Positions 18,134 to 64,000 of a DNA stretch of 64,000 bases are shown piece by piece. Within the stretch, counting starts at the first letter, position 1. The number at the start of each line of letters is the position of its first letter. The stretch comes from Trichostrongylus colubriformis (Eukaryota; Nematoda; Chromadorea; Rhabditida; Trichostrongylidae). The stretch spans positions 28,793,426-28,857,425 of the forward strand of contig OZ022256.1 of the NCBI GenBank assembly GCA_963978905.1. The letters run 5' to 3'. Under the pieces are notes generated by a model. That model searched no databases. It was not told the origin of the DNA and saw only the letters and a program-made list of their open reading frames with translations. Both the position numbers and the translations under genes were made by a program.

Positions 18134-21100
18134 TTAATCACATATTGTATCGAGATATGCATCGACCTGGTCATAGACCTGTTTTTCAAGATCTTCCATA
18201 TTTTCAATCAAAGCTATACGAATTTGTTGTTCCAGTGAAGAATCCTTCTCGATCAATTTTTTGGCGACAAATGCGTATGTTTGACAATCACCACGGAAAC
18301 TCTGCAAAGTCACACTTAAGTACAGTAAAAAAAAAAACACCAGTAAGTTCCGTTTGCTCATCCCACCCCTATAAATTCCACTGTCTGGATAGATTGAAAC
18401 AACCAGCTTTTGTAAGGCATCACTTTCAGAGCAACTACGACCTCAGGATGTGATTCCCGCTGCCTGTTCAAATGCGCCGTCTGAGAATAGCACGTGATTC
18501 CGTAACTTTTCCAAGACTTTTTCCAGTATAAAACACAGGGAAGTAGGATCAACCAGGAGCACTGCGTAGAATCTTCAGCCGGAATCGCGAAAAATCTACG
18601 TTGAGAGCTTCGACAGAACCTGATGGTGGCGGGCAGTCAGAAACAACAGAAGTGCGCAAATGTTTTATACCATGAGAAATTGGAAGAACTGACGTTCCTC
18701 ACACAGCATTTTCACAACAGACTTGATTGAGTAGCTCGCTATACAGAACCATTACTGGAAGTACGAGGGGTTACGTGAGAATCAGCCATGTGAGGAAACA
18801 AATGCTAGAAAGAGATTGCGCATGTCACCTTCACAGCTGAATCTCTCAGATCATGCGCCGCAAGAGAGAAGGTTCACTGAGGCGCTATGACACTTTGCTG
18901 GTGTGTACCGTTACGTCAGGATTTCTTGTCGGGTTGTGTGACACGCGACATTTGCGCACAAAATGGCTGGACTTGGTGGGGATTGCAATTGCGTAAGAGC
19001 ACGTTCATGCTTTGCGCAACGACACCGCCACCGGCCGCGACAGCGTCAAAATCATGTGCCCGCCGCCCACTGCGGCACAACAGCTACCATCAATCAGTGG
19101 TGAACTGAAAACGTGATTTCTGTTCTATGAAGTGAAACCAGGTTAAAAGCAGATTCAATTCAGCGGCGAAATGAATGAAGAGAATGGAAGAATGAAATCC
19201 CGCGAAATCCCGTGACACGATGAAGATGCGTATGACGCAGTCCTCGCTCTTCTAATGCAATTGACGCAGATCCAACGAGTCCAGCTGTCTCGTGTACGAA
19301 CATCATGCGCCGTAGTCGCGACGCGAAGTCCTGACGTGAGGATATGCACCTGCAATTTGCGGCACCGACACCAACCTTGTCTTTGCCTGCCCCGCCTGCC
19401 GGCACCATGGTTGACGGGTGCCGACCCGGCAAAGTACGACGGCGGCCGAAAAGATTACTTCCGACAATCCTATAGTTGCTTGCGAGGTTCTTGTCTCTAT
19501 GGAGCAGAGATGTCCCCCTACGACATGAGTGATTTTCCAAAAACTAGCGAATCTGTTAATAATGCGACACATCACCAGGCGATTATCAGATCCAACGAAT
19601 TTCCTGCAACTTTCATCTCAAATATGAAACTGAGACGCAGGCGTAGAACGAACAGATGATTATGTTGCAACCTTGCATGTACAATGACTTATATCAGACA
19701 TCACAATAAGAACAATGGCGTTAACGTAGGGAGGTGAGAGGCGACCAGGAATTTGGAAAAAATGTGAAATGGCACTGTTCTGTACCTTCTTCAGAGCATG
19801 CATGGATACTTGTTCTTTCACGACCAGCAAGAGGAGGTGCGTCTAAGAGAGGCGTTTGGATGCGCTGCGAACGGTCACAACGTTCACACTTGTGCCCATC
19901 GTTTGCAGCGCAATTCTATGCAATTTTCCTAACTATTCAGACAACTAAAAAAAGTTGGGAGAGGATTGCATGAACAAGCCCGAGGCAGCGGGCGATAACT
20001 TGGACGACCGCTGAAAAAAAGTAAAAGAGCTCATAGCGCGGAAGTGAAAATGAACCAATAGGAATGCTCAAAAACCCAGAGAACGGCCCCCGATTTGGCC
20101 GAAAAAAAAAAACTCGTAGTGGGTCCCGCTCTGACAGCAAAGTGCCGATTGGCCACGCCCATCTGTGAGGTGGTCAAGCAGCTCGCTTATCGCTGGCAGT
20201 ACCACAGAGTCTGGCGGCTTGCGCATGGGTCGAAGAGCTCGAAGCGCGCCTCTCAGCGCGGAACGCGTCACACTTCGCAAACACCCATTTTTCTTCAAAT
20301 AATCCAAAATATCGCACACGCTCCATTTGAACAAGTACATAGCGCAGTTTATATCGTTAGATTATGACTTCACCCCTATAGTAGAATGCCTGTTTATCTA
20401 GCAGCGCGCCTTTTTTCTTGAGCCGAAAAAAAGGAATATCAAAATAAATAACCTCTTCTAGCTTCTTCTTCCTCACTAAAAACCTTTCCAGATTTATCTC
20501 GCTCAGCTTAGAAAGCCGCTCTTCTCTAATTGTACGCTTTTCTTCGTCACTATCTTGTTGCTGCATTGCTAAACTACTTAGCCGCAGTCCACCTGTACCT
20601 TAAAAATGATATATCGACATAATACTGGACTCAAATCCGTACAATTAAGTATTGGGAAGAAACTTACTTTCATCGGACTTCGGCTCCGCCTTGACAGTTT
20701 TTATTAAATTTGCTTGAATTTCTTTGATCTGTGAAAAGTACCGAGAAGTTGTCGGGAAACGTGATGTCATAGTTTTAGCAGATGAGACCTCACTCTGGAA
20801 TCAAACTTCTTCAAAAAAAGGAATATGAGTTGCATCAAGCTGACAAGACAAATCAAAAGCGGATGACAATGACGCTGACAAAAAAAAAAAACAAAAACTA
20901 AAAAAACATTTTGAGACATGAAGGCTTAGCATTAGGTTTACAACAGACTAACTATAAGAACGATTCGTGCTTAGGGAGACAAACTATACAGAGAAGAACA
21001 ATAATGGACCACAATGATGATTGGAAATAGGGTGACCAAGGAAAGTAGTGCTGCCTATAACGGATGCTAACATGGAAAGATACCTCATGGATACAACACA

Positions 21101-24100
21101 CAGAAGCCATCGAGTAAGTAGGCGAAAAGTGCCTCAAGAATTAATTATCATCAAGCACTAACATTTATTTCCTAACCTCGACAAAACTTTACCAACATTC
21201 TATCAAGCCTTAGTACTACTTGAAATCTATTTTACTTAATACTCATAAGAAAGAGAGCCACCGTGCCCGAAAAAGTAGAACCATCAGATCATAGAAAATT
21301 GTAAATAAGGCCATCCCAATACCATGACCAAGAATATCCAGTTAAAATCCAAATATTCGTGTGCGTTGAAACCGCGCAAATGATCCTGCAGAGTTTTGAA
21401 TTGTATGACTACTTCAATGTCGCCTCACTTGTAGTTCTTCTGCTACTCGTTCTACCTATTTGCATTGGTTTGAAATTATAAGAGATCATTTGGTGAAAAT
21501 ATTCCAAACGAACGCTATGACCACTCGAATGTCAAGACTCAACCAACTTTAGGTTATCCTACTACTACCCTTTTTAACATCACTGCTATCGAAACAGCAA
21601 CATCTGTACCTTCACAACTTCGATCACCTTGCAACTGCAGAGCGAATAGCAACACCCAAGCATCATTTTATTATCAGCTCTCTTACCTGAGATGGTCTAG
21701 GTGGTGCAGGTTCTGCACTATACTGCGCTGCAATGGTTTTTGCTGGAGTTTCATCTACATGACTGCGACCGTTTTCGTTCTGCACGACCAGCTTGCCAGC
21801 AGCGGGCTCATTCGATCTTGAAATGGGTTAATGACATCGAACGCTTCTTTTTCATCTCAAAAAGACAATCTGTCTGCTAGATTCCTACTTCTTTACAGCT
21901 GCAATGGTGCCGTTCATAGTTGCGAAATTAGCGGAATTAACGGAACCAGAGAAACTGCTGAAATCGGTGCCAAAAATTAGATAGGCATCAAACGGGAGAA
22001 TGTTGAAATTACTAAAATATGCCGGTAGCATTGTGAACATATAGGAATAGATACGAAATTAATAAAACACCGCAAAAATACTGAAATTTACATGAACTGG
22101 CAGTACTGCCAACAAAGCGATTGGAAATTATCGACTTTCCATCGAAACTATGATTCTCCCGATATGATCCATATCTCTTTCCACCAACTCCCATAACTAC
22201 GCTGGTTATACAAATTCCACGACTACGAACATTATTAAAGACACCGTCTGGGTTAAGGAGAAACCTTGCATCGTACCCCGTGTGCGAAGGGCCAATTACT
22301 TCCTCGCACCTTATAAGCGAAAAAGCAATTATTTAGGAGCCATAAGCAAAGATCGGCTATACACCGCTTAACTTCATCCGAGCGTATGTCCACAAAGAAA
22401 AATTCGGATAGTTTAGGTGAACTTCTGATCGAAGAGCTAATTTTTCTCGAAAGGAAGTGTTCGGTTTAATGGTCCTATTACTTTGAGAAAAAAATTCAAC
22501 TAAGTGGGTTTATTCCATTTATTTATTCCACTCATTCACTTTTGTTCATTATTCCAACAATTTTTGAACCACAGAACTGTAACTGTTGAGTCTCAAATTT
22601 TGGAAGTGTTACGATCATCCCCTTCACCAGTATCCAACTGGTAACCAAGGACCATTAAACCGAACTATTTTTTTTTCGAAAAAAACCTTAATCATAAGTT
22701 CACCTAAACTGCCTTAATTTTTCTTCCTGTGGATATTACACTCAGTTAATGGGGTTGAGCGGCGTATAGCTGACTTCTGCTTCTCGCACCTAGTCATTTA
22801 CTTTCTCCACATAAGGTGCGTGGAAGAGTATTAACTCCCCGCACTGGAGTGCGAAGCAGATACGATACCAATGTGTACGCACCGGAGAAGACATGATCTC
22901 TGAGATCAAACCTTCCAGTCCAGATGAAGTGATGTATGGCGAAAATCGCACTGGGAAAGCGCGGTTTGTGGTCCTATCACGATTCCGCAGCACTACGCGT
23001 GGCACACCAACGCAGCCGCCGGGTGTTAGCGCAAGGGTGTGACAACGTTAGCGAACGGCTGGCAAAGTCCCTCGCCCATCGGCATCTACCCCCCGGGCTA
23101 TTGAGCAGAGGGGCGCGAAAGGCAGGGAGTAAGAGGGAGGTTCCCGGACACCTATTCCACGGATTTTTCACCGTTTTATTCCAACATCCCTACGATCATA
23201 TTCTCCAGTTATTTCACAATCTGCCAAATTTACACATTCCGGTTCCTATGAAGCAAAAAGCTGTGAACGATAGTAACCACCACAGCGCTACAAATGAGGT
23301 GAGCCCGGATATTAAGGAGATTAATCGCGCCACGTTTAGCTAATCAATAGACATGTGGAGATGTCACCAACTTCTTTTCAGAGCTGAACAACGGTGGGCA
23401 GGGAGGTGGCGGTAAACCGATTGACGCCATTACGCTCGGTTTCGTATCCTGCTGCGATTCTGAAATATACGAGGATGAAAAGCTCTCCATCGGCTACAAA
23501 CTCTCACATGGACAATCAAGAAAATTTCCGTAATGATCAACAGCATGCGAACAATGGACGGATTCTATGAAGAAAAATCAGTCATTCCAATCATAAAACA
23601 TTCATCACTTAAACTACTTGATTTCCACAGCAGAGGAAAGCATGCATAAGTATAATAACGTCAACCTTGAAGCAGTCGCTGCTCTTCTTCCTGAGCTGCA
23701 ATTGAAGGAGGAGTCACCACGGCGCCTGATGGGGACATGCGGAGCACTCGACGGGGTAGTTCATCCTGTAGTGAAGTAAGCTTATACCACTGCGTAAAAA
23801 AATTACTATTAGTAATAGCAGCGTAAGGATAGAGTCCACGGCAACCAACTTCTTATTATGCAATTCCGGATAGCATTACAAATAAACCACCCAAAGTGGG
23901 CAGCATCAATGATCAAAATGTTCGCGTGCGCATTGCTTAACTTCTACACCGTCGTTTTCGATAACAGGCATGATTAAATTTCGGTTCGACATATTGAACG
24001 ACACTTTTCTTATGAAAACGGTACTTCCCTCAACAGTACTAGTCCCTCACAACCCCACATTACTTTCCGTTATCCCTTTCCCAGTGAAATCTAGATACAA

Positions 24101-27100
24101 GCCCGTGGATGTGTACCTTAATGTCAGGATGCCGCACTGCGGAATGACGCAAGCGAAGCAATGCGGACGAGCTTAATTGTTGGGTCCCGAAGCGATTAGA
24201 AGTCAACTGCGTATCGCACTCCTAGCATTACGTTGTAATCGTTTTGAGACCCAACTACCGTGACGCGCATAGCTCGCACACACTGTGTCGCACGCCGCTC
24301 GCCATCGTGCGGCATCCTGACATTAGGGTACATATCCCAAGCCCGTAGTCATCTGCAACCCTCTAGAACAATGACGATAGTCAGATTGCAAGGAATTGTT
24401 AACTCAGCATCAATGTACTTAACTATTTATAAGAATAGCTTCTGTAATGGATTGCACCAAATTTCTTATACTTTAAACTCAGACATTTCAAGTATCAAGA
24501 GCACGAGTATTGATTTTGTCCGCCTATATCCGACCACTCAAACCATGTACAAAGGAACAAAGAACCTTGACAGGTTGTTCGCGGCTACCGAATATCTGCG
24601 TGATAATCCCACAAAACGGAATAGCGATTACCACGAGGATCATCGTATCCTCCGTGGCAATGTTACCATCCAAGTAACATGAAGAAGCTAACATGTTGCG
24701 CAACAAGACCATTCTGCAACTTTTTTTGCATTCCAGATAGCTGTTTTCGGACTCAACTAAAGATTACACAAACGTCAAGGTATTGTGGCATTTGGCATGG
24801 TTGTGGAGAAGTTTATTCCTTGTCAAAATACCAGAATTTCCCGGATTTAGAAAACTGCCTTCTGACATTAATCCATATGTGATACACGGAATATTCATTC
24901 TACTATAAATAATTCGCTTAGTATGTCTGTGTGTGTGTGTGTGTTTGTCCGTCTGTCACGAAATTCATATCTCGCGTCGCAGCAAAGCTGAGACGCTGAA
25001 TTTTACAAGATATATAGGGGGTGCCAAGGGAACCCCAGCGGTGGTGGACCGGAAGTGATAGCAGCTGATACGCGCTGATAAGGAGCCTCAAAAGGCGAAT
25101 GTCACCAAAGTCGTTTCGCCTTTCGGGTTGATCCTAGAACGCTGACACACATAGGTGTTTTGTGGAATGGGACGGGAACATTATTAGCGGGGGATCCAAC
25201 TCGAGAAAGGTTGATAAGATACGATAAGGAGCGTGAAATGGCTAGAGTCGTCGAATCCGTTTCGCCTTTCGGGTTGATCCAAGAGCGCTGACACTCATGG
25301 GTGTTTTGCGTTATGGGGCGGGAACATTATTAGCGGGTGATCCAACTTGAGATAGGTTGATAAGATACGATAAGGAGCGTGAAATGGCTAGAGTCGTCGA
25401 ATCTGTTTCACCTTTCGGGTTGATCCCAGAGCGCTGATACTCATAGGTGTTTTGCGGGATGGGGCGCGAACATTATTAGCGGGTGATCTAACTTGATAAC
25501 GGTTGATAAGATTCGATAAGGGGCGTGAAATGGCTAGAGTCGTCAAATTCGTTTCGCTTTTCGCATTGGTTCTAAAGCGCTGACACTCATAGAGGTGTTC
25601 AACACTGTTGGCCAGGGACATTAATGGTGGGTGATCCAAAGTGATAATGGTTGATAAGCTTCGACTAGGAGCGTGAAATGGCTGGAGTCGTTGAATCCGT
25701 TTCGCTTTTCGCATTGGTCGCGGAGCGTTAATACTTACAGGTGTTTGGCAGAGCGGGACGGGGACATCGATAGTGGGTGATCCAAACTGATAATGGTCGA
25801 TAAGATTCGATTAGGAGCGTGAGAAGGAAAATGTCACCAAGGCCAGTACGCTTTTGCGGCTCACAATGGTATGTTCATATTCGGAGGTATTGTAGGGTAC
25901 GGGGATCTAAGTGATAACGGCTTACGGTGGCTGATAATAACCGTTAGGGATCGGATGGGATGAAATCCTTCACATCGCCTGCTACTACTACACGACCGCT
26001 TTAGCAAGATCGTCTGATGCACAGTGCCATCAGGTGAACATATTTTGTTGTTCTGATATTACTGGCAGATGTATCGACCGCTGAATTGCCTAGCGTTCCA
26101 TAAATGGTGCATTTCTCTTGATACTGCGATCTACACTGATAACCATGATACAACCTATATTTGTGATAGCAAAGCAAACGTTTCACTCGGAATCATTTTC
26201 TAATGCGGTACTGGCAGCAACAATGGGTATCGTCCGCTAGACTATGTAAAATTCCAAATAGTGAAGCATGTTTACGAAAACGATATACGTCGATAATCGG
26301 GATCTACTATCATTGTGTAGGAATTAGATGCTCAGCAAATGAACAAACTGTTACCAATCGATGCAATTGGATACAAAACTATCGATGCCTAAACTATCCA
26401 AACTCCCAATGATGACCTAAACCAGTTGACACACTACTGTGCGCGATACATGTCGATGACGTGCAAAATGGGTTCGATGCAAAGCAACTGAAGCATGTTG
26501 TACAACAACGTCATGAATCGCGCGCAGTGGTGTGCGCCCGCCAGCTGATTGTTGCATAATTGGTTCGGTAAGGAATTCAATTTACTACATTTTTCTCCTT
26601 TTTTATCAATGCCAAAAAATACGGACTATGCAGGGAAGAAACCACGGGAAGAAAACCACGTACTCACCGATTCAATGCCAATACTAAAACTGGTGTTGCT
26701 TATGACATTAGCAGGGGTATTGATGCGAATAGGAAAGCGAACAGGAGCAGTTGTGACCGGAGCCATGGGTGGAGGAAATGGCGCATCTGCTTCTGTAGGT
26801 TCTGGAATGGCGCCACGGGGAGTTGTTGCTGCTTCCTCCTGATTCGGCGAGACTGGGGATCCAGCAGGAGCGTGTCGCCCAACTGAAGAGGTGATTCAAT
26901 TAATGAATGAAAAGTAGAATAGAGCTTCCAAGTAAAGGCAAAAACGAAAAATATGTACATATTGCACGTTCTGGAGTTGATGAGTGTCCTCCCGAAGAGC
27001 TACGAGACCCACTTCTGCTGCGCTTCTTCTTTCTGAAATAGTAACTTGTATTAGGTCTATGCAGAATAAATGGCCAAAACGGAACACTTTTTTCAAAACG

Positions 27101-29275
27101 CCATAACTTCGCTCAGACACAACTTTATTTGTCGAAATAAAAACCATTCGAATCTACACAACCTTGCCAACGATCTGGTAAAGAAAATATGCCATCATGA
27201 TCAAATTCTGGATTGCGAAAATTAATGAAGTCAACGATGGCATTTTCAACATGCATCGTTTCGGCGAACTCCTTCTGACGCAGGTTTGCATCGAGAACCG
27301 GGAAAAAGTGGTAATTCGTCAGAGATAGGTCTGAGGAATAAGGGGGGTGAGGGAGAGTCTCGATCAGTTTCTGCCGGGTGACTTGCGAACTGTGGGGTTT
27401 TGCGTTGTTTTGCGCACCCAGTAAAAAATGATGCAGTTAGGCATCGAGTCTCTCCCTTATCCCGCTTATTCCCCAGACCTATCCCTGACGGACTACCACT
27501 TTTTCCGGGTTCTCGATGCAAACCTGCGGCAGAAAAATTATGCACGGTAAAAATGCCATTCTTGACTTTATTGATTCTCGCAATCCAGAATTTGATCGTG
27601 ATGGCACATTTTCTTTACCAGATCGTTGGCAAGATTCTGTAGATTCGAATGGCTTTTATTTCAACAAGTAAACTTGTGTCTGAGCGAAGTTATGGCCAGT
27701 TATGTTTTGGCCATTTATTCTGCACAGACCTAATAGAACGGAACTGGAACACTAGTGAATAAAGGAATAGCCCACGATTTTTTGTGCTTCTTGTCTTTCT
27801 TAGCACGCTTTTTATCAGGATCGCCATCATTATCCTTATCCTTCTCACGATCGGAATTTGAGTCGACGGATGCAGATCGTCGATCACGTTCATCATTTGC
27901 TCCACGACCACTACTATGCGAATGACTTCGGGAAGAGTTCGCCGACCTACCATGCGACGGATCATTTATTCTAGAGCTTCGAAGGGTACAGCTACTTGAT
28001 CAGCTCAAAGTGATTCTACACGTGAAATGGACAAATTCATCAGAGGCAAGTACTAACCTCGCACTCGGAGATCGACTGTCACTAGATGAGCGACCTCTCT
28101 CTCTAGACCGTGATCTACTCCTGTCATCATCACGTTCTGAGTGTCTCCTTTTGTACCTGAATTCGTTATGAGGGCAGCTTACTACTTATGCATCTCCGGC
28201 TCTTCTCAAATGCATAATTCTGTGCTTCATCATTATCACAGGAGCACCAGCCACCTTTAGATTTATAATACAAAATTGAAAGACAGCGTTATAAAATGGT
28301 TTTTATTAGTACACTCACGAGTCTCGTCCACTTCCTCTAGAACTCTGCTGATATGATCTATTGCGATAGGCAGTCCGTCCTCTCACTCATGGAATTCGAA
28401 AGTTAAATGCAGATTTGTGTTCAAAAATAATGGCTTACTTACTGTTTTGGTTCATACTTTGATACTGCGCATATCGACGGATGTCTTTAAACCAAGTTAA
28501 TTCGCATCGATGACCCATCAAATCACTGTCACTATACCTGAACGATAAACATCGTTCAATGCTGAGCGAAAGTAAGGCAATAAACACGCTTACTTGCTCA
28601 TCGCTTCCTTCGCATCATCTCTTGTTTCGAAACGAACAGCGACGAACAGGCGCTGTTGATCCGCACTAGTCTTAACAAAATCGAACGACACCGGTCCAAT
28701 TCTGTCCTCGAAATATTCCCTAAAACATGCAACCTTAACATACGCACATTAGCGGATCGAATCTTTGTGTAAATGTAGATGTGCTATTTCCCATGCTTCA
28801 CCATCACTCACCTTATAGAAGAAACCTTGTCAAATCAACGAAAATTATTAACGCGATGCTCATTGCACCTTTCTAGTCAACAATGGCAAAAGTCTATCCA
28901 AAGGTCAAACAACGAGATAGAGTAACAGGATAGGGGAGTAACGTCCAACGGCAACCGTGAAAATCTCCTCCAATTAATTGACGCTCATTAAATATCGATT
29001 ATCATCAAATCAAGAGCTTTTATTGCTGGAAATATTATTCGTTACTGTCTTTGCTAATCATAACACATTGAGGATTCCATGACGATCAGTCGAAATGCGA
29101 GTACGAATCAAGACATAAAATGATAGCTGCACCTGATCTCATCAGTGGACATGTCTCCAGGCAAACCACGAATGAATATGGTATGCTTGGATTCAGGAAC
29201 TTCATCTTCATTAATGCGGTCTCTTCTCTGATGATAGTCGTAGCCACGATTTCCGTAACCACCACCGTAGCTCAT
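18134..29275 (-). CDS. RRM/RS-domain protein with periphilin-like C-terminus
   Basis: Exons (minus strand, 5' to 3'): 29275-29133, 28719-28594, 28537-28443, 28379-28319, 28156-28058, 27976-27776, 27032-26968, 26882-26668, 23765-23666, 23459-23372, 21816-21687, 20728-20668, 20598-20453, 18301-18134. All introns are GT-AG and every junction keeps phase; the sum is 1698 nt, 565 residues plus TAA. Residues about 31-110 form an RRM (RNP2 TIFIRGLP; degenerate RNP1 RLFVAVRF), then an RS-rich, basic stretch (about 130-260), a proline-rich stretch (about 265-440), and a charged helical C-terminus (DCQTYAFVAKKLIEKDSSLE) which resembles periphilin's Lge1-type domain. The last two exons join inside that match (KKKLEE|SFRGDCQ). 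Likely a nuclear RNA-binding protein. The exon 4 acceptor is ambiguous by 6 nt. Alternative: 18361-18134 read alone begins like a signal peptide, but that part is better explained as an intron end. Structure is firm; the periphilin link is a family-level inference. Confidence 0.8.
18985..19105. repeat. Harbinger-like MITE arm (single end)
   Basis: Matches one arm of the elements at 49413 and 52087 (cores GCGCAACGACACCGCCACC and AAAATCATGTGCCCGCCGC). The opposite arm was not recognised. It lies in the last intron of the RRM/RS gene. Confidence 0.5.
22335..22795. repeat. intronic foldback repeat
   Basis: Arms about 22340-22475 and 22650-22790 are inverted copies (shared AGTTTAGGTGAACTT, TTCGGTTTAATGGTCC, GGCTATAC.CCGCT). 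The loop is about 175 bp. It lies in the intron between coding exons 10 and 11 of the RRM/RS gene. Confidence 0.65.
22925..23330. repeat. dispersed repeat family D
   Basis: Shares a colinear series of blocks with 49850-50215: AAGCGCG...TCCTATCACG.T.C.GCAGCAC, then GGGTG.GACAACGTT.GC.A, then GCGAGA/GCGAAA G-rich blocks and CTGTCAAATTTAC.C.TTCCGGT. A partial third copy is near 61080-61215. Small ORFs inside (to 135 codons) differ between copies, so they are not genes. It ends about 40 bp from coding exon 10 of the RRM/RS gene. Confidence 0.6.
24108..24340. repeat. intronic foldback MITE
   Basis: Arms of about 80 bp in inverted orientation: GTACCTTAATGTCAGGATGCC (24113 on) and the inverted GGCATCCTGACATTAGGGTAC (to about 24332), with GTTGGGTC blocks inside. 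Termini and target duplication are not resolved. It lies in the largest intron of the RRM/RS gene. Confidence 0.65.
24918..24948. repeat. GT microsatellite
   Basis: TATGTCTGTGTGTGTGTGTG-type run directly before the lead-in to the 146-bp tandem array. Confidence 0.9.
25021..25935. repeat. 146-bp tandem repeat array, about six units
   Basis: The marker block GC(C/T)TTTCGGGTTGATCC and its variants starts at 25118, 25264, 25410, 25556, 25704 and 25850, giving spacings of 146, 146, 146, 148 and 146. Each unit also holds GGTTGATAAGAT.CGAT, GGAGCGTGAAATGGC, GCGCTGACACTCAT and GAACATTATTAGCGGGTGAT. The first and last units are the most diverged. The array is in the intron between coding exons 8 and 9 of the RRM/RS gene. 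A 108-codon minus-strand ORF across it is a by-product of the repeat. Confidence 0.9.
27051..27733. mobile_element. foldback element made from two mariner 3' ends
   Basis: 683 bp. The left half and the inverted right half are near copies (about 290-340 bp each). Ends are TTAGGTCTATGCAGAATAAA and its inverted match, and both flanks are TA (27049-27050 and 27734-27735). The right half on the plus strand reads SPDLSLTDYHFFRVLDANLRQ, the C-terminus of a mariner transposase. So it is a head-to-head duplication of a mariner end. It sits inside the intron between coding exons 6 and 7 of the RRM/RS gene. Confidence 0.85.
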
Positions 29276-29333
29276 CGTTGAATTCGCAGAAATGATTCAA
29301 ATCAACTCAGGTAATCCACAGTTGAAATAAAAG

Positions 29334-29335
29334 CT
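29334..29335 (-). promoter_or_regulatory. candidate spliced-leader (trans-splice) acceptor
   Basis: CTCATTTCAG on the minus strand, 58 nt upstream of the ATG at 29275, with no in-frame upstream coding continuation. This is the usual position for a nematode spliced-leader site. Confidence 0.45.
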
Positions 29336-29473
29336 GAAATGAGCACGTATCGCATGTTTGCCACAATCATCTCCCTTATATCCACATGTCTCTTATCGCT
29401 CAAGTGATTAGCACTATGAAGTTTTCGTGTTAAAACACAGTTCATACCCACACAGCGTTCGGGAGTGACTCAC

Positions 29474-30262
29474 CGACGTCGTTTTCCACAACAACCAGTC
29501 TTCCAACAGTATAACCCACTCAAAGACAAAAATGTTTTCATCACATGCAACTTCTAATATTTCAGTTCTATCATCGAACCGAACCATTACGAGGGACAAG
29601 AGCTTGTGTTTTTGTGAGGACATTGCAATCTGCACAAAGAAACTTAACTGAGACCTACTGCCAAATCCGATTCGTTCCTTCCTTAACGTAGGGGTGGGAG
29701 TGGTTCACCGAACTTAAACCTTCTCCCTCTCTTTGAGCCACGTGAAACATATGCTCGCTGAATCACAATCATCTCCCGGTATCGTGCTCCAACCTTGAAG
29801 TGTTGTCTGACAGTGCCGGGATGCACATTTAGATGCATGTCCTGAACCCCTATCCACCACATAACACACCCCGAAAGCAATTTCAAGATGGATAAAAAAG
29901 AAATGAACTAAATCCTGTTCAGGAAGAGAACCCGTTCCTTTCATATCGCTGTTGACTAAGTTTGGACAGGAGCAAAGTGAATATAACCCAACTTTTCACC
30001 GACGTCCAAGTACCTTCCATCCTTGGGCTGAGGCTAAAATTCATATCCCCTCCTCCTACATGGAAAGCATCTGTCTCATCTGCTTTAGCCTGAGCCTAGG
30101 GAGGGAAAGGAGCACCAAAGTCGGTGGGACGACCCTGCACTATTCACATGAATTCGCTTCCTATTAATCACATGCATATCTGCAGCAGCTGACTAAATTT
30201 TGTCAATAGTAAAAAAGTAAATCACCACAGAACTTACCTTCCTAGAGATTTCAGCCGTTTGC
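29474..30262 (-). CDS. possible upstream exons of a small gene or untranslated leader exons
   Basis: 29629-29474 is flanked by a strong acceptor (TTTCTTTGTGCAG) and donor (TCG|GTGAGT) and opens with ATG at 29623 for 50 codons (MSSQKHKLLSLVMVRF). About 600 bp upstream, AGGAAG|GTAAGTTCTG at 30238 is a strong donor preceded by an acceptor-like TTTTGACTAG. Joining to the acceptor at 29335 gives a stop after nine codons, so the reading frame does not enter the RRM/RS protein. It could be a separate short gene, an alternative leader with an upstream ORF, or chance. Confidence 0.3.
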
Positions 30263-51459: not shown

Positions 51460-51480
51460 GGGGGGGGGGGGGGGGGGGGG
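51460..51480. repeat. mono-G run (21 G)
   Basis: Twenty-one consecutive G, the longest mono-G/C run in the window and a likely G-quadruplex former. Confidence 0.95.
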
Positions 51481-51516
51481 TTGGCCACGCTGTGGCTCGG
51501 TCGGAAAAGGACAGTA

Positions 51517-51592
51517 AGGCCGCTTCCATACTTTGCGCACCGACGCCGTCACGCGCGTGACGGCGTCGGTGCGCAAAGTATGGAAGCGGCCT
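51517..51592. mobile_element. perfect 76-bp palindrome, Harbinger-like MITE termini fused
   Basis: The left 38 bp (AGGCCGCTTCCATACTTTGC...) and right 38 bp are exact inverted copies with no spacer. The arm matches the ends of the MITEs at 43212, 49413 and 52087. TAA is present on both sides (51515-51517 and 51592-51594), consistent with a 3-bp target duplication around a GGCCGC...GCGGCC element. Confidence 0.95.
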
Positions 51593-52498: not shown

Positions 52499-54235
52499 TT
52501 ACGAAGGATCACTCCACCGCCATCAGCGAGCTGTTGGTGCTGACTGTGATATGGGCATGTGCAACAGATGTCCACTAGAAAAGCTCTGTTCACATGGGAG
52601 AGTAAGTGGTTCATGAATATCAGCGATATCTTTTGCGCAATATCCTCTTTCGCCAGCAACTCACTTCGCTCACATGCGTGCAGATAAATTCAGAAGAGAG
52701 GTTACTCTCTCGCGATATTGCAGATGCACTCGTCCAATAAAGGAACAGGCTTTCCCCTCACCTAATGACGAATTCGAAAGCCTTAGGTACCTCTAACAAT
52801 TGACTGTGTTTTTATCCCTGTAGTTTAACGCCAAAATTTTATCATTTTTTAAATAATGAGTTCATCCAGTACATTCATAAGGGAAACGCATCGTGTCTGC
52901 TTCCTGGACATCGCATTTGCTAGCTTTTTAATTGCCCCATATTTTATCGACTTTTTACGATCAGGATAGTTGTCTAGAAAACCTCTAAAGCATGCCAAAA
53001 TAACCATCTGAAAACCTCTAAATCATGTCAAAATCCAAAGCGTGTAAACAATCTCGATATCCCACCACAAACCACTACAGAATAGAATCAATTGATGGAG
53101 TGTACACTATGTGCCTGGATTAAGTAAGAGAAACGAATGGAAAAACTCCTACCTCCTTTGTGCTGCTAGTCAGCAAACGCGCTCTCATGATAATCCGTTA
53201 CATTAGAGAAACCGGAGCCTGCGCTGAGTTTCGACGCAGTTGTAAGCGTGTATTTTGGGCGAATTCACGAAAGTGATGCAGATGTTAGTAGCTGCGCTTT
53301 GGATGCCTTCGCTGATTTCTCTCGGAGTAAAACTCAAGAAGATTTCGATGTCTAATCAATGCATTGCAGTTCAGCAAAGTGGGAAGTTACCGTTGGACCC
53401 ATTTTCTCGTCGAATGGCCGGTGGATGAAGTTCTGTCACGGCATTAGTAAGTTCTTGAAAGTGAATGCCTTGCAACATCTTCAGGACGGACGAAGAACTC
53501 CTGCTCCGTAGCGGAACGATGTGGTGTTGCTAGCGCAGCGCTGTGTGCACAACACTCAGCTGTTCAAAGGATACAAAACTTTTGATTATAGCCTTCATAA
53601 ACTAACCTGTGAGATGCATTAGGACTCCAACTGATTCATGAGGACTAAGGAGTGCTATGGAGATACGTTAAGTGGTCCATGAGTATGTGGCTTGTATTTT
53701 TTCATGAGATTCCCTCTGCTCCTCCTCCCCTATCCAGGTAGCGCATTATTTCACTTTAGGAGCTTTGATTCACGCCATGGATTCAGTGCTTTGACTTTCA
53801 TCCATTATGCTGTCCCATGCTGCTAAGTGTCTTTAGTTCAGTGTCACTTCAGTTTGACTTCATACTCTCTATTTCCTACATTTGTTTACTATTTTACTAT
53901 TGTTTTATAATTCGATTTTGGGCAAAGCAATTATTGTTCCGGTGCGGTTATTATTCCAAAACTACTGCGATACGGAAAGCGAGGCTTTTGAAAACTCTAT
54001 GCAGTGACCGCAAATATTTCCAAATTTTTACTGGTACTCTCTAGCTGTGAAAATTTGATCAATCTAGACTTTCTAACTTTAGAACATGTACATCATGTTT
54101 CCAATTGCGGTGCTATTGTAAAGCACGGCCATTACTTAACCGCTTTAACTGGTTCCATACGATTTCCATGCTGAAGCCGCGCTGCTCCTTAACGATCCAT
54201 TATTTCTTCCTGCATCACGAATTCAAAGGCGTTTG
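52499..54235. other. no confident gene
   Basis: Mostly AT-rich. A plus-strand stretch near 53380-53510 (SKFLKVNALQHLQDGRRTPAP) faintly recalls the helix-turn-helix of a Tc1-like transposase but is too degraded to call. Confidence 0.35.
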
Positions 54236-54404
54236 TTAGGCCGATATCAGACATCGCGATTTTGCGATTCCGCCATTCTGCGATTTTGCGGCGTCACACT
54301 TTCGCAAGCCATACTGCGACCTTAAAATCATGCATTGCTGCAACTTCGCGTGCGGAGCCGCGACACCGCAAAATCGGAAAATCGCGAAGTGTGGCGGGGT
54401 TTTT
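54236..54404. repeat. foldback repeat with TTAGGCC end
   Basis: Inverted blocks CATCGCGATTTTGCGATTCC and the inverse of CAAAATCGGAAAATCGCGAAG enclose a GC-rich centre. The end TTAGGCCG suggests a relative of the Harbinger-like MITEs. Termini not fully resolved. Confidence 0.5.
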
Positions 54405-54829
54405 AGTGACGGGAATGTTTTAGTGGATGTTCATTAGCTAGGAACATGCTGTTACAACAACGCGTTGTAGCATGCGCTGAAACCCGGAGCAAGTTCTACC
54501 ATCGTGAAAAAAGAGTGGAAGTCAGGATCGTCACGGGCAACAAGTGTCCTTAAACTTGTTAGGCAATGGATCCTATTACTTTATTATTCGAACTATTAGG
54601 AGTATCTTGGGAAATTTTACGTTGAATCTAACCGCAGTGATCTGTGACCCACACGCTGATCTGTCGGTCTTCGCCAAGATTGTTCTACAATTTTCAAATT
54701 CGCGGGTTGTCTCCGATTTTGCCTCCTTTCGTGCTGTTGGTGATAACCACATAATATTTGTTATTTATTCGATTGGTGTTACAGATTGTGGTGTAGCTCG
54801 TAGATTCATGAAATACTGAATAAGCTGGC

Positions 54830-57800
54830 ATGAATTTCGTTATACCAAAAAAGAAACGTGTGGTTGAGAAACCCACAGTAGGTACGTTTCTCAGTGATGT
54901 GTTCGCTTTTAGTACATAATTTTTTTGTTCCTAACGTAGTTCCAGTATTCCCGAAAAATTCACTTCCTCTATCTGATATCACTATTTGAAACATTAAGCG
55001 GATTTGATTTGATCATCGAGGGTTAGATTGTTATCTTTATTTCTCAGATGTGTCGTCACTTGAGCCTAAGGCTACTATCGAAGATGCTGCTAAGGATTCA
55101 CCAAAGTTCAATACCGTGAAACATATAGTATTAGAAAGCGTGTCCGATCGTCAGGTGACCCAGTTCATGCATGTGGAGAAGGTCCAGCTGATCAAGAACC
55201 CACTCCTTGAATTTAGGGTATGCACCTCAATGTCTTTGTTTGTTCGCCAATATCTAATCGTATGAGTAATTTCAGTATAACCAGTTCAAATCACCTCAAT
55301 GTCTTTGTTTGTTCGCCAATATCTAATCGTATGAGTAATTTCAGTATAACCAGTTCAAATCTGCTTTACGCTCGTCCGGTCAAAGTGATGCAGAAGGGTA
55401 CGGATTTCTCCTCATTGGATTTGACGACGAAGATGTAGGTTGTCTTTCTTGAGTCTTCCGTTTCTACGATACGTATCACCACTTGAAATTTTAGTGGATG
55501 CACATATGTAATAATGGTTATTCTGTCGGTACCGACTTCTATGGTGACCTAGGTCTCATAACACGCGGTAATTACTTTCAAGGCAAATTTTTAGCACTTC
55601 ATTCCTTTTCAATCGCCCGGTTTTTAGGTGTGTACGTTTACCGTCATGTGGATTTAGTGACTCCTTCGCTTTTTTATAAAGGCGAAATCATGCGGGTTAT
55701 GGTTTTTCGCACATTGAGGCATGTAAACAATTTAGTTTCACATAGAAAAACGATCTGTTTGGCTTTTTTCTTAATAAAATACATTTCCAGAGGGAAGAGT
55801 AATGCAGTTGGGCTGGGTTCAACCGAACTTGAACCTACTATGGATTGTTCAAGTCATGTAGCAGCTTCAGATCATATTCCGGCAGCCAAAAAAAGCCGAC
55901 AACAACTGCATCGACAGTCAGCAGTTCGTTTGTATTACCTATTGAAGATTGGCATTCCATTGCTAATAATACTTACTATTTCTTCATTTATGAGGGTTTC
56001 CTGTACAGGTCTATCATTACGAGTACAAAAAAGACATGACAGTAGCCGATGTCCCTTCCGGCGTTTTGCCTTATGCTGTGGTAGATTTGCGATTCGATAT
56101 TTCTGAGAGAAATCAGCACTCCAGTATTCTCCCTACGTTAGGGTCAGTTTTGTTCCGAATATTTTTTCCAATGATTCCCTAGTTTATTGCTTATTTCTGT
56201 TTCTGCATTTCGTATTTCGAGTTTGCTTCTATGGGTGTTTTTGTCCGATGTTTTAATCAGCGTTTCAGTTACGTGAACGATCTACTATATTTTTATCCTG
56301 TATACGAAGGACATCTTTCCATTTGCTCAGCAGTTTTTGGAAAGGCAACTTTGAACACCGTTTTTGAGGATTCGTGCAAACCCCATGGATTGTGCGTATA
56401 ACAATGACGTAAAAAGTTCTTTTTACATTTCATGAAATCGCATTTCAAGAGATGAGTCGCTGGCATTCACAAAGCTACTCAAATGGGCTGACGCTTATGA
56501 CGTGAGAGGGCTTCCGCAGCTTATGGCACCGGAAACATGGGGTTTGATAGCGAAGCAGCGCGAAGTTTGCGTTAAGGTAAGTTTATCTAACCAGATAATT
56601 ACTGCACAGCTACCTTCTACATGAACACATTTCAGAATCACAATGAACGGTCTGAGAAGTGGAAAGTTCGTTATGTTTCTCACTTTGTGTGGATGTGTAA
56701 CGATCCACTTTTTGCTACCACTGTCAACGCCATGCGTGTGGAACAATGCGTATGTGAAATCTATTTCTTGTCTTATTTGGCTCCGCATAGATGCTTCACA
56801 AAAAATAGTGTAAAAGTTTGTATTCTCTGGGAAAGAAGGTCATCTGTTCGCATAGTCGACGGGTGTTGCATCTTATAAGTTGAATTTGGTTGACGAGAAG
56901 AATAGTTTTTTCTGTGCATATCATGTTGGGTGGCAGTTAATATGTTGTGGAAGTATTTTCACTTCTATTAGTGAGAAAGAATAAAAAAAATTACGTAATC
57001 CTCAGACTTGCTACCGGATATCGGTAGTTGCGCGGATTAGAGGCGCTTCGCTCCCACAAAGTCTCCTCGAACGTGAACTCAAAAGAGCATGAGATAAGAT
57101 TTGTCCTGGGGCTTCCTCCTGTCCCCGTATCGTTTTGCCTGATGTGAAACTGTGGTGGAAGTGGAATTGGTCTGCAAGATAATGTGACGGATGACTTGAG
57201 TTTTAGGCTGCAATTGCTTACTCAATAGATGCAACTACGTACGTGGCATTTCCTTCTAGCCAGTTTTCGAATATATTCGGTCTACCATGGCTACAATCTC
57301 CATCCCTTCATGTTTTGGTGATTCATGCCAATCCGCTCTTCTATGCTGACTCAAATGACGTTAACTGCTTCTCCGAAGAAACGTAAAGCTCTTAAGTATT
57401 ATAGTTCACAAAATGTCTCGCACTGTAAGTGCGCAATTGATGCTGTTTTAGAGAGATTACAAGCAAAATTCCTCTTGGCACTGCAATTTTGGATGGCGAT
57501 GACGTAGCAATCTGTAACTCATTCGACTCCCAAGGTACGTTATCATTTTGTACATATCTTGAGGGGAGTTTGGGAAGTTCGCACATGGTTAAGGTTGCTC
57601 AGCGCTTTCGTTATGTTATCATGTTTTCCACTGTTCGTTTTCATATTTCAAAATTTTAGAAATAGGTGTAGATGTGTCAGTTTTGATCGCGAATCGTTAA
57701 CTTTCCTGAGGCGCTCTAGGGTTTATAGGCACCAACACCGTTTAGCTATTTGCTTCACACCTAAGCGCGAAACAGCTTTGTCAGGTGCGAGTACTGGCCA

Positions 57801-60800
57801 TCGTATCGATATTTCCTAATTAAGTGAAATTTTCGTGTGTTGTACAGTGGCTGAAGTCGGGTAGTTTCCAGTTTTCCAGTGGAGAGAGCAGTTCTGCTTG
57901 TAGTTACAGAGGTTACTGAAGCCTCTGCCTTTTTGCATATAACTTTACTTGTTTTTCTCAGATCGCATGAAGATTTCCCAGTTCACTCAACCGGAATCGC
58001 GTGCATCTGCTGTTGGTTTGCCTTTCACTGAGTCACCATCGCCATGCAATGAAAGTACGGTTTGCTTTACTTCGACGGGAATTCTTTAAATTATAATTTT
58101 TACTGAAGTTTCAATAGCTTGTGTGCAGATTCTACGAAAGCTGTTGAAGCGTCTCAAAGTGCGTGTCTGGACACGAACGATGAAGAGTTTACTCCACTCC
58201 CTCCAGTTCCTTTGCCAGAATTTGCCGGCAAAAGTGAGCATCTTGTTTGGCAGCGTATCAACGACGATCTTATGCAACTGCTTCAGGTTGCCTACGCAAT
58301 AAGCCTCCACAAGTCTTCGTAGAACAACCCCCACTAATTGGAAAAAGCGTGCCTCCTCCTGCTCCCGGTGCTGCCCGAAATGCGGTTAGTGGATATAAAC
58401 GGGTTTTCATTTTCTAAATAAATAACTTCTGACGCTGATTTTTCGATTTTTGATTGGTGTTGGGTTTTTTTTTGATTCTTGAATGGTGTTGGGATGGGAT
58501 GTTGCTCTCTTAAACTTAGAAGTTACCATGTATTCGAGATAATCAAGGATAACGTTCATCTATATAAAAGGCTATTTTCAAGGTTGTCGGTGGAGCTCTT
58601 CCAGTTAGAAAAACGCGTATACGATGGTCAGACAGTGTCGTGGACGTGAGTCATTTTTTGTTTGAGAAAATGCTCCTGCATTGGAGAGATCCTACTAGAA
58701 ACACATTCTACGAAACTAATAGCGCGCAGTAGTAGAGCATGCCTGTCATTATTAGTGCTGAAGATGCCAGTGAGTAATGAATACTGCTTCAGGTCAGCAG
58801 TGGCTGTATTTCTTACAGTTAGGTAAGAGGTTCCTTCGGCAGTCATAGATTGTCACCGAGTTTCGGTGGCTTTGTTCAGTTAGAGCAGTCGTCTATGGGA
58901 GGCTGTGATCTTCTGTTATCCATAAATCTATGTTTGTTTACTGCGAGCCTTATGCAAAGTTTCACGCGAGAAAAACAAGAATATTGCTGATACACATTTC
59001 TCAGAGTAACATTAGACGGGGTGCGGTTGACGCTAGAGGGCTTTAGAGAACAGGGCGACGACCAGTGATCGGCGACACGGGGTGGGGGGCACATCAACGT
59101 AAGGTGGAAAACTGTGGATAGAACTCCTTTCTGCCCACAGCTATTGAAAAGTGGTTTGCCTAAAATTCAAACGAGTTGTTGATCTTCCAGTTTTTTGGTT
59201 ATTGCGGTAGAACAGAGAAGGTTTCAATTCCTCCTGTGTTTTTGTTTAAACCAGTTGAGCTGGCGCACACTACTGCGCGACACACATAGAAGCATGCAAA
59301 ATGAGCGCGTGTATCGAACTCTTTCACCCCGCCACACACTCTCACTCTCGCCACTCACCCAAGTCCGTAGGCCACGCCTTGCCAGGCGTTGGGGAACGGA
59401 CTTTACCTTAAACTTGGGTAGACCACAGGGTGGACAGACAGACACACAGACATACCAAACTCCTGGTTTATATATAGGGTATGATACTGATTCATTGGGT
59501 AAGTTCCATAAGCTTTGGACCCATTTGGCCAGTTCCCGTCTACTACTTCGTTTTTCTTATTCCTCTTCACAATCGGTCAGTGTGATATGCCCGGTAAATA
59601 TCTGCTACACATCGTCATCGCATCGAAGACTTTTCGATTTCCTTGATGTGGAACTTCGTAGACTCTTGGTATGAAAGGTGAATGTTGGTTCTTGTAGTTC
59701 ACCTTGGTGAATAAGAAAGCAGATTGTGCGTTGATTTATTAGCGCGAGAGTAGCGCTATGCTTTGGGTGAAAAAAAAAATGCCCATCGAAAGTGTTTGAT
59801 TTTCATTGACTAATCTGAATGAGGTAGGGCACCATCATAAGAGAAGCACATTCTGACTAATTTCACCTTCAACTGAATCACTATACGAGCAGCCTATTCA
59901 CCGGAGGATTCCGCTTGGACATCGTCTTCGAAAATAAAAGGCACTGGCAAGCAGCTTTCCTCTTCCATGAAAAACTCTAGAAACCCTGTTATTCCATGGA
60001 CTTCACTTTTAGCAGAGCCTCTGCCACCTGTGGATTGGCTGCGCTGTCCTATCTTAATTGCTGGTGCTGTTATGGATAGCCATGGTTGGTGCAATCAAAA
60101 GTGTGCAGGATTTTTGCGAGGCTCTTTAACGTGCTCGGCACAACTTTTTTTTATATACCTACTTGATTTCGTGAGAAGGGCCCAGTATTGTCACCTCAAA
60201 GCATGGGGTTGCGCTGTCTCGTGACGGTTGGACTTCGTACAGGTCTTCTCATGAGCTTGGCCTAGGACATCAATTGTGAATTTTATAGGATTGTCAATGT
60301 GCCCCTTCATAAAAAACACTCCAGACTAAGGGGTGTCAGGGCTGCATTTTTAGGTTAGTGGCCGCACCCTCTTCCATTGCGTGGCTAGTTCTGCTCACAA
60401 CCTGGCCACTGAAAGATCCTATGCAATGCATCTGAAAAATTAGGTCTCGAAGAGCTAGCTAAAGCGGTATGTCAGCCAAAAGAAGCGAACAAGTGAGGTG
60501 GTTATTCAGTCGGAATGGTGAAGGTGATAGATTATTATCAGATGAGTAGCGGAAGTTTGGGTTTCCTTTATAAATTTACAGAAATATGTAAATCTAAAGT
60601 GGTCCAGAACTTATCGGCCTACCTTAAAGTATGGTGATAGTGTATTGTTTTTGAGAAAATTGGAATTAAAGGATTTCTGAGTACGGCTCCTTCAATACTG
60701 TAAGGCTTGTAAGCAAATGTAGATCGAAATAGTCTGAGCTAAAAACAAGATCAAGCACGTGCTATCGTGCCCTTTGCATCACTGGAAAAGTGATGCCGAC

Positions 60801-63800
60801 GGTGACACCGGCATTGACGTCGTTACCCCACCCCCACGGCTACTCCAATGTGCACCTATAGCACCAAAACGCAACCAGAGGAGGCGTCGATAACGGGCCC
60901 TGGCCCTAGGCGCACTTTTCAATGCTTTTGTCGCCAATGCTAATCTTTTCGAAAGTCGCTTCACAACTAAGGGAAGGCATATCACCTTTGGGGTCTTTCG
61001 AGTCTCATTGCGCTTCACTTTGAGCTCTCGCTCCACAAGCTGAGAACTGCGATATCGGAGCAACATCCACGGTTGACAGGCACAGCCTATCGCCGTTTGC
61101 ATCTACCCCTCAGCTGCTTGTGACGGCAAGGGGCGAGAAGAGGGAAGAGTATTATATTTTAATAGTCCATTATCGGCCAAAATTACCCCTCCGGCACCCT
61201 AAGTTTTGATGCTGAGAAGTTCATGCGTCCTAAAAGAATGAATCGTTATCTAGGAAGCATTTACAGCTTCACTATAAACACATTCCGAGAATTACATTTC
61301 TTTTACTATTTCAAATGTTCATATAATGTTTGTAGAAGCCATTGAGTTTTTGGCAAACTATGTTGCAGAATGAGAACAAATGCGGTAAAAAACTTTCGAA
61401 TGACCGAGACGAAGCGGTTAAAGCAGGGTTGCATGGACGGCTTCCACCTAAAGACTTGTTAACGAGAAAGCAACCATTAACCACAGCTGAACAGACGGTC
61501 GGTTTTTTCTCTTTTCTGAGCTTATCAGATCATTCGTAATGGTTGTGGCTGGTCACTTCATTCCTTATTTCTTTGTGATTTGAGGGACCACAACTGACAC
61601 TGAACGCACCGATCCTTGCTTCGAATCCTACTCCTTCCACCGCTGTGAATAAACACAAGGATTTATTCCAAGGTGTTTTCAACACAATTGCGAAAGGTAT
61701 TACCTCCTTTTGAATTAGTCGCATCTGGAGTTACGTATCACATCATTTGAGGAGGCAGTGCGGATGTCGACACGGCGGACAAGGGTGTGGAGTCAGTACC
61801 ATTAGTTGAGCAAGCTCCTGAAAGCACTAAGGTTTGTATTGATTGTTTTTCACAATGATCCATTGAGTCTTCTTCGTACCTGATAAAAAACAAAGCTCAT
61901 ATGATTCTTCAACGACCGACGACATTTAGAGCCTTGAGCCCTTCCATTGATCTGTAAACGTTGTCTCGCTCCAGCAGCTAAGAGCCGAACATCATCACGC
62001 ATACTAATTGAAATTCGAAGGTCAGCAACCAGTAAATGGCTAGTGGGACCTGAAGAAGAGCTAGAGGCTTGAAACTGTGTTGATCAATTGAGAATCATAC
62101 CAGCTTAGTTTTTTAATCACTCACGATGAAAGTCTGTGCAATGAATCTCAGGAATTACGGTCGATATGATACATTAAGTGTTCGTACCCCTTCTAGAGTA
62201 CTTCAATACCACGACGCCTTGGAGCAACGAAAAACTGCATAATAACATCATTGCCACTACCACTTCTTAGCCGGAATACGGACAATGCAAGTTTCCTCCT
62301 TAGAGTTCATTTGTGTTATTTTCATGTGTATGAAAAAAGTCTGTTACAGTGCTCCCGAGATCCTGGCGTCTCCTCATCTGCGTCGACTGGAAACTCACAA
62401 TCGTCTGAGGTGCAGTGTGTAGTTAAAAAGCCAACCTTTCGAGTGTTACAACTACTCTATCCTTTAGGACGAGCTCACAGTGTGTGACATGGAGATCGAA
62501 TCGGGCTCTGAAGGGACGCCTACGCCCCCAACCATAAAAGCGTCCCCAGAAAGAACAGATGAGGTTAGGATATCAATTGTATACGCGAAGACGGTTTCTA
62601 GGGTTGCCGTTATTATTACTAATACTATATAATAATATTAATTACTAATACTACACTTGCCATTTTACCAGTTTTCGTCGTAAAAAAGTCTCTCCTTACT
62701 CTATCTGCTGCCACTTCTAGCCATCCTTGCTGCTTAATCATATGTATCCTTAATGGTAAAGATCACCCATAATTGAGGTGGTTTATTTACTAAACATGAT
62801 GTGCCAAGCGCGAGTAGCCGTACTATCGATCGCGACGGTTTAATTAATCCGACTTAGATAATAGCTAATTTTCGTCGCAGTTCACCATTAAAGTTTGTCA
62901 AAAGCTGTGTTCATGTGGGAAGCACAGGTAGATGTGTGAGCTCGTCTAAGGCCGAGTGTTTTGCAGATGATATAAACAAACGTTTGTTCGATGAAAGACG
63001 GTTCAGTGAATGAGTATACAGGGGGTGCTAAAAAAAGTAATTTTTGTCCTCCACTTTCAACCACACATTAGTCGAACTTCGGCAAATTCCGACCAGGTAT
63101 CTCCATCCCCAAAGTAAAGAGCAGACCTCACTCTATCACTGTTCTCCGTTACAGCCTTCTGCACGCGCAGTAACGGTTGCTTGTTCCGAGTGAAGAAATG
63201 TGTCACCTCAGCTGGGCGAATCCGAAACTTCTTCGCCCTCGTTCACAACCTTGCTAAGGTCCGTTCACTATGGGTACCTGAAAGGACTCATACTGGGTGG
63301 TGTTCTTAAATATTCCGTTTTTTCTGGGTTCCTAACGCCCTTCCTTTCCAAGAGCCAGAACGTGCCATTACCATTGAAACCCCTCCGGGGACCGGTTCGA
63401 GGCATGGAAATAGATACTTCGGATCATAGCAGCCTTGTCTAAGCAGCAAGGGCTCTCTGACTTCCATGATCCGAAGGGCCAATCCTTAGGAAGCTTCCCA
63501 CAAAAGGCTTACCACGGAACCCGGCTCCTCTGTTTTAAGGGGACCTTGATACGTGGGTGCTCTGAATCCTGACTGCGCCGCTTGAAGGCTCCATATTTTT
63601 ATGAAAGTGAAAGTGATGAGTCTCAGCTTGTTCCTGTTTTTAGAGGAACGCTAAGGGAATATTCTGCCTCAATACTTTTATTTCTTTCGTTTCCCTATGT
63701 TTTGTACAACAGGCGGATGTGGGCCGTGAGCAAAATTACTTTTTTTGGAAGCCCCTGCATATTCTATTCATGCTTTCTTTTCTCATGTTTTCACTTGTTT

Positions 63801-64000
63801 GCTCTAATAATGATCATCCACGCATAGGCCAGTCTGATAACAGCGATATTATTGGCTTTTTTCAAGGCTGTGGACTTCATTGATGATCATGACGCAGATT
63901 ACGATGCTCAGTTCATGTGCGATACGACGACGTCCATGGATTCACAAACCAGTTCATGCCCTTCAACAGCTTCTACCACATTTGGTAATATTTAAACTTA
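54830..64000 (+). CDS. TASOR-like protein (DUF3715 pseudo-PARP), partial at right edge
   Basis: Phase-consistent exons: 54830-54881, 55048-55217, 55345-55434, 55495-55552, 55628-55718, 55791-55923, 56009-56142, 56269-56391, 56450-56576, 56636-56749, 57405-57424, 57452-57534, 57660-57695, 57962-58054, 58129-58233, 58287-58384, 58583-58645 (1590 nt, 530 codons). Later exons: 59893-60084, 61336-61497, 61660-61696, 61752-61831, 62350-62409, 62468-62563, 63212-63258, 63355-63436, 63867-63984; links around 59893-60084 are not closed. MNFVIPKKKRVVEKP holds an SV40-like NLS. Residues about 30-230 show TASOR-type motifs: VEKVQLIKNPLLEFRYNQF, GYGFLLI, ICNNGYSVG, GVYVYRHVDL, ELEPTMDCSSHVA, LPYAVVDL. Residues about 250-400 (VYEGHLSI onward) may be a SPOC-like domain. 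The tail is acidic and Ser/Pro-rich. Intron 55719-55790 appears GC-AG. Likely a chromatin silencing scaffold; function inferred from family. Confidence 0.75.
55223..55360 (+). repeat. 69-bp tandem duplication spanning a splice acceptor
   Basis: Two identical 69-bp units (55223-55291 and 55292-55360, starting CACCTCAATG) each carry the intron 3' end, ATTTCAG, and the first 16 nt of the following exon. Both acceptors are thus present (after 55275 and after 55344). Use of the first acceptor would add sequence with an in-frame TAA. Confidence 0.95.
58646..59892. repeat. repeat-filled intron region of the TASOR-like gene
   Basis: Contains a diverged arm of the TTAA-type MITE (about 58935-59020, TTTCACGCGAGAAAAAC), one end of MITE family B (about 59325-59405, CTCTCACTCTCGCCACTCAC then CCGTAGGCCACGCC, ending GGGGAACGGAC), and a GACAGAC/TATATAGGGTATGAT tract (59430-59480). 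A short exon of length 3n+1 should lie here or nearby to link coding exons, but was not identified. Confidence 0.55.
60085..61335. repeat. intron region with partial family D repeat
   Basis: 61080-61215 shares blocks with repeat family D (GCATCTACCCCTC, GGCAAGGGGCGAGAAGAGGGA, AAATTACCCCTCCGGCACC). A 107-codon minus-strand ORF at 60779-61102 has no recognised domain. No further coding exon of the TASOR-like gene was found here, although one of length 3n+2 is expected. Confidence 0.45.

Follow-up and report, generated by a model that had tools for sequence, protein, structure and literature searches.

The 64,000-nucleotide stretch of the Trichostrongylus colubriformis genome analysed here (contig OZ022256.1, positions 28,793,426 to 28,857,425 of the forward strand; 'the window' below) carries relatives of the HUSH subunits TASOR and periphilin in a head-to-head arrangement, and their products probably assemble into a HUSH-like complex that would silence transposons by way of nascent RNA. 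The homology of both genes to HUSH subunits is firm as judged by sequence comparison. A preliminary description of this DNA had proposed a HUSH-like pair: the two subunit assignments stand on their domain scores, whereas the complex and its silencing of transposons, that is, the role of the pair as a HUSH-like RNA-guided silencer, are what we infer. Nematodes likely have their own version of HUSH-type genome defence.

The periphilin-like gene lies on the minus strand, where 14 exons were placed between an ATG at 29275 and a stop codon at 18134 (window coordinates), collinear with full-length database relatives. Its first exons encode an RNA recognition motif (RRM) followed by an arginine/serine-rich (RS-rich) stretch, and its last ones the periphilin C-terminal domain, as listed here.

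29133..29275, minus strand: exon 1, ATG at 29275, RRM start (splice sites and alignment to P0001)
28594..28719, minus strand: exon 2, RRM (alignment to relatives)
28443..28537, minus strand: exon 3, RRM end (alignment to relatives)
28319..28385, minus strand: exon 4, Arg/Tyr/Gly-rich
28058..28156, minus strand: exon 5, RS-rich
27776..27946, minus strand: exon 6, RS- and KD-rich
26959..27032, minus strand: exon 7, KR/S-rich
26670..26882, minus strand: exon 8, Pro-rich linker, ends approximate
23667..23765, minus strand: exon 9, linker, ends approximate
23371..23466, minus strand: exon 10, linker, ends approximate
21687..21816, minus strand: exon 11, linker
20668..20794, minus strand: exon 12
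20453..20598, minus strand: exon 13, helix running into Periphilin_C
18134..18301, minus strand: exon 14, Periphilin_C core and stop codon (Pfam Periphilin_C and 6swg match)

The periphilin C-terminal motif is found at 18289-18137 on the minus strand. The frame of the last exon alone matches Pfam Periphilin_C with an E value of 5.6e-12, and the three joined last exons do so with E 5.1e-13 and 49.6 bits, for a curated cut-off of 27. The same three-exon piece matches the PDB entry of human periphilin-1 (6swg, E 6.6e-9). The preliminary assignment of this gene as periphilin-like is thereby borne out, no other helical family fitting its C-terminus better; matches to DUF4559, FeoB_Cyto and IL3 were weak, each under its own Pfam cut-off, and were rejected. 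Two repeats were seen between the exons, namely a tandem array of about five copies of a 146-bp unit (25112-25822) and, by eye, an inverted-repeat element within an intron (27200-27700, minus strand).

In human periphilin, as reported in PMC7544229, the subunits of the dimer meet at Leu326, Leu333 and Ile337, and Leu356 points towards TASOR. The substitutions L326A, L333A/I337A and L356R all abolish TASOR binding; silencing is lost with L356R and about half kept by the other two (PMC7544229). At these four positions, aligned on 6swg, the window gene has L, L, I and V, hence three residues identical to the human ones and one conservative replacement. Residue and domain counts were made on 33 aligned relatives, with P0008, P0010, P0017, P0020, P0022, P0028, P0036, P0038, P0042 and P0043 omitted. 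Among them, Leu is present in 29 at the L326 position and in 29 at that of L333, Ile or Leu in 29 at that of I337, and Val, Leu, Ile, Phe or Met in 29 at that of L356, so that each position is hydrophobic in 29 or more of the 33.

The N-terminal RRM had been overlooked in the first reading of the gene. The human protein has a long, disordered N-terminus (PMC11754731; PMC7544229). A disordered RNA-binding region of that kind was not found in the worm protein, which has an RRM fold instead, a variant architecture. The layout is that of a serine/arginine-rich (SR) protein, an RRM followed by a region that is RS-rich by composition. It is widespread: 33 of 43 database matches have both the RRM and the Periphilin_C ends, nine match at the RRM only, one of them a plant SR factor that is likely a chance match, and one at the C-terminus only. 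RRM_1 was detected in 32 of the 33 aligned relatives, as was Periphilin_C (E 0.01 or better). The matches include two Caenorhabditis elegans proteins, P0015 and P0017, as well as 12 flatworm proteins (by species name), 8 of which match at both ends. In Mesorhabditis belari, two relatives (P0012 and P0028) are on equal-sized contigs, perhaps after a local duplication. In the predicted structure of a periphilin relative, the predicted local distance difference test score (pLDDT) is above 90 for the RRM, which resembles known RRM structures, and under 50 for most of the middle part. The best 50 of 1594 fold matches of this model are mostly or all RNA-binding domains or complexes holding them; 6swg is not among these 50, in a search that barely probed the hairpin. 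That two protostome phyla share the RRM and RS-rich architecture points to an early origin, with loss or replacement in vertebrates, a direction that we deduce from its distribution among the sequences.

The TASOR-like gene starts on the plus strand with an ATG at 54830. The preliminary description closed at 64000, the end of the window, yet the gene continues for some 22 kb beyond it and ends near 86.2 kb in window coordinates. The parts within the window are the following.

54830..54881, plus strand: exon 1, ATG at 54830
55048..55217, plus strand: exon 2
55345..55434, plus strand: exon 3, DUF3715
55495..55567, plus strand: exon 4, DUF3715
55628..55718, plus strand: exon 5, DUF3715, donor GC in place of GT
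55791..55923, plus strand: exon 6, DUF3715
56009..56142, plus strand: exon 7, DUF3715 end
56269..58645, plus strand: further exons, about residues 248-575 of P0044, conserved, expected SPOC-DomI site
61369..63986, plus strand: further exons, about residues 576-804 of P0044, with the PIN exons downstream of the window

The seven exons from 54830 to 56142 encode a DUF3715 domain (Pfam E 2.8e-11, 44.1 bits for a cut-off of 28.5), as had been proposed for the start of this gene, and the TASOR structure 6tl1 matches the seven-exon piece with E 1.2e-13, or 5.7e-21 in a profile search. The hand-joined exons are equal to the start of the T. colubriformis database protein P0044 (1604 residues), with 100% identity over the aligned 51% of the query; both genes are multi-exon, as first described. 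At its C-terminus, P0044 has a PIN_TASOR domain (E 2.3e-20, 73.2 bits for a cut-off of 27), so that two TASOR-type domains are found at opposite ends of one protein. DUF3715 is present in 13 of 14 TASOR-like relatives and PIN_TASOR in 7 of them, the remaining seven being shorter gene models. The automatic exon chains hold doubtful small exons, and residues beyond the hand-checked exons were taken from P0044 and relatives; the last two PIN exons were placed from an automatic chain and their residues equal those of P0044. A search of the genome located the TASOR-like piece once, together with a weak match on contig C3 (E 0.32). When searched exon by exon, Pfam DUF3715 gave no match in this genome or in 14 control genomes, which is no evidence of absence, the domain being spread across small exons. 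Where human TASOR has Leu184, catalytically active PARPs carry a residue that is central to NAD binding (PMC7532188). Leu occupies this position in 13 of the 14 relatives and Val in one, in agreement with an inactive PARP fold; Leu184 alone was used, the numbering on the 6tl1 chain being right for Leu184 and Tyr217 and off by one at Tyr295.

Two further features of the TASOR-like gene deserve mention. A perfect 69-bp tandem duplication (55223-55361) spans the splice acceptor of exon 3; by reading of the sequence, the acceptor of copy 1 leads to an early stop, and that of copy 2 is used in our model. Around residues 563-585 of P0044 (near 58583-58645 and from 61369, plus strand), a stretch resembles the Ypi1 family of protein phosphatase 1 inhibitors. 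With E 1 as the limit, PPI_Ypi1 is detected in 8 of the 14 relatives; the best E is 2.2e-4, and that of P0044 is 0.0077, below the cut-off. Nematode TASOR may have a link to a phosphatase.

The start codons of the two genes are 25.6 kb apart, in line with the separation of about 25 kb given in the preliminary description, which had allowed that linkage might be due to chance and had suggested a search for it in other strongylids. We judged linkage elsewhere by equal-sized contigs, as a proxy for the same contig, and by locus tags, in the five other species in which both genes could be placed. The genes are on equal-sized contigs in four of them, with consecutive locus tags in two. The pairs are DICVIV_08197 and DICVIV_08198 in Dictyocaulus viviparus, on an equal-sized contig, and ANCCAN_23410 and ANCCAN_23411 in Ancylostoma caninum, the periphilin entry of which is a fragment with a match confined to the RRM. 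In Necator americanus, RB195_000672 and RB195_000667 share a contig size and have locus tags five apart, and a further entry for TASOR in this species (NECAME_07297) lies on a differently sized contig. Both genes are also on equal-sized contigs in Angiostrongylus costaricensis. Because it recurs in this way, the linkage is unlikely to be due to chance. Nevertheless, these might be true relatives of HUSH subunits that have simply remained neighbours by inheritance, without a function for their proximity. The 25.6 kb between the start codons and the spacing of the Necator locus tags speak for this, and the repetition of the linkage across several strongylid genera speaks against it. We regard it as a serious possibility, if somewhat short of an even chance, and it is compatible with the two proteins acting together in a HUSH-like complex.

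How might such a complex operate? The periphilin relative would use its RRM and RS-rich stretch to bind nascent transposon RNA, and these parts would replace the disordered N-terminus of human periphilin in this role. Its C-terminal helical hairpin would dimerise, and helices from the central part of the TASOR relative would wrap around the dimer. The TASOR relative would bring in heterochromatin factors, and the complex would recruit an H3K9 methyltransferase via an MPP8-like chromodomain partner. HUSH silences retroelements and DNA that lacks introns. It binds long transcripts without introns and represses them, and an intron gives protection even when it is not spliced. An SR-type periphilin fits this distinction between intronless and intron-bearing transcripts. 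The combination of RRM and RS-rich stretch in periphilin suggests an SR-type ancestry of the sensor. Going further, we tentatively propose that periphilin originated as an SR-type RNA-binding protein, that the HUSH sensor of worms and flatworms keeps its RRM and RS-rich tail, that HUSH might tell intronless invaders from spliced host genes by competing with, or posing as, the SR proteins by which exons and introns are marked, and that sensor and scaffold might constitute a linked genome-defence locus in strongylids. This broader scenario is plausible rather than probable. The RRM of C. elegans and flatworm periphilins is a folded RNA-binding domain open to testing, and the locus supplies named genes for asking whether nematodes have HUSH-like complexes. 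If they do, nematodes would have an additional layer of transposon control beside small-RNA systems. The neighbourhood of the genes had been called packed with transposons; in a partial check, limited to six open frames, one transposase fragment was recognised by Pfam.

4858-5247, minus strand: transposase fragment, Transposase_1 E 1.8e-18

Several results weigh against a HUSH-like complex. No Pfam match to SPOC-DomI was found after DUF3715 in the 14 TASOR-like relatives, and both SPOC and DomI are required for human HUSH (PMC7532188); the region where they are expected is strongly conserved among strongylids. The TASOR segment that wraps periphilin (human residues 1014-1095) was unmatched in the PDB profile search, and the predicted structure of a 740-residue TASOR-like relative is poor, with a mean pLDDT of 41. 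In Cooperia oncophora, the two genes are on contigs of differing size. In C. elegans, no TASOR relative was found by single-sequence or alignment-based protein searches, the latter of which added only one strongylid protein and scores only candidates sharing most words, so that the result is no proof of absence. The periphilin relative is clear in that species, and it may therefore act without TASOR. It is probably Y57G11C.9, from the name given to P0023, and this gene is listed together with rsp and other genes that have isoforms subject to nonsense-mediated decay (PMC5777819), as would fit an SR-type splicing role.

The same observations feed an alternative for the minus-strand gene, namely that it codes for an SR-type splicing regulator that shares only the dimerising hairpin with periphilin and has no silencing role in nematodes. 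In its favour are the RRM combined with an RS-rich stretch, the listing of Y57G11C.9 with rsp genes, and the presence of the protein in C. elegans, in which protein searches recovered no TASOR. Nevertheless, its TASOR-binding interface residues are kept, and a TASOR relative is found nearby in several strongylids. We consider a pure splicing regulator unlikely and favour a periphilin that would partner TASOR.

The plus-strand gene could instead code for a TEX15-like germline factor of small-RNA silencing rather than a HUSH subunit, given that DUF3715 is common to TASOR and TEX15 and that the TEX15 version can substitute for that of TASOR (PMC10578480). This is very improbable. The PIN domain of P0044 is of the TASOR type, with the E value of 2.3e-20 given above, and TEX15 is described as vertebrate-specific (PMC10578480). 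With the PIN domain present and no TEX15 domain in the 14 relatives (Pfam, E 1 or better), we rejected a TEX15 identity. Lastly, that one or both assignments stem from a gene-model artefact or from convergent helices is barely conceivable and was dismissed: the periphilin motif is short and helical, but the scores are well over the family cut-offs, and the databases contain independent gene models that agree in domains and exons.

In the literature searched, from which preprints and most subscription journals were outside the scope, we found no described nematode HUSH, in keeping with the preliminary description, nor any account of an RRM-bearing periphilin or of linkage between TASOR and periphilin genes. 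Within these bounds, invertebrate TASOR-like proteins are already known, and the nematode HUSH-like pair, the RRM-bearing periphilin and the linkage appear to be new. Database entries already bear the automatic names 'TASOR pseudo-PARP domain-containing' and 'Periphilin-1 C-terminal domain-containing', and a snail study names a TASOR gene (PMC12294990). A 2020 review of C. elegans chromodomain proteins regards the conservation of HUSH-like complexes in that worm as yet to be established, and notes a high similarity of several CEC chromodomains to the ones in Pc/CBX proteins or in MPP8 (PMC7649781). Schopp et al. 2023 (PMC10578480) described TASOR-like proteins of invertebrates, which are also DUF3715-bearing TASOR relatives outside vertebrates; they are defined by DUF3715-SPOC-DomI, whereas the worm protein is known by DUF3715 and PIN. 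By word search, the main text of that paper does not mention nematodes and contains periphilin once, in the reference list.

Among the known systems close to the periphilin-like gene is the C. elegans protein P0015/P0017, which has the RRM, the RS-rich stretch and Periphilin_C in identical order but, unlike the T. colubriformis gene, comes from a species in which protein searches found no TASOR relative. The fission yeast RITS complex of Chp1, Tas3 and Ago1 (RITS, RNA-induced transcriptional silencing) works with Argonaute and small interfering RNA. As described in PMC7532188, SPOC and DomII/PIN domains are present in Chp1, and Tas3 resembles periphilin, a likeness that we take from that description. 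Human HUSH comprises TASOR, periphilin-1 and MPP8, the last with a chromodomain, ankyrin repeats and a PINIT-like domain (PMC7618375). The T. colubriformis pair resembles it in the DUF3715 and PIN domains of TASOR and in the Periphilin_C hairpin with its kept dimer and TASOR-binding residues. It differs from it by an RRM and RS-rich stretch in place of the disordered human N-terminus, and by the linkage of the two genes.

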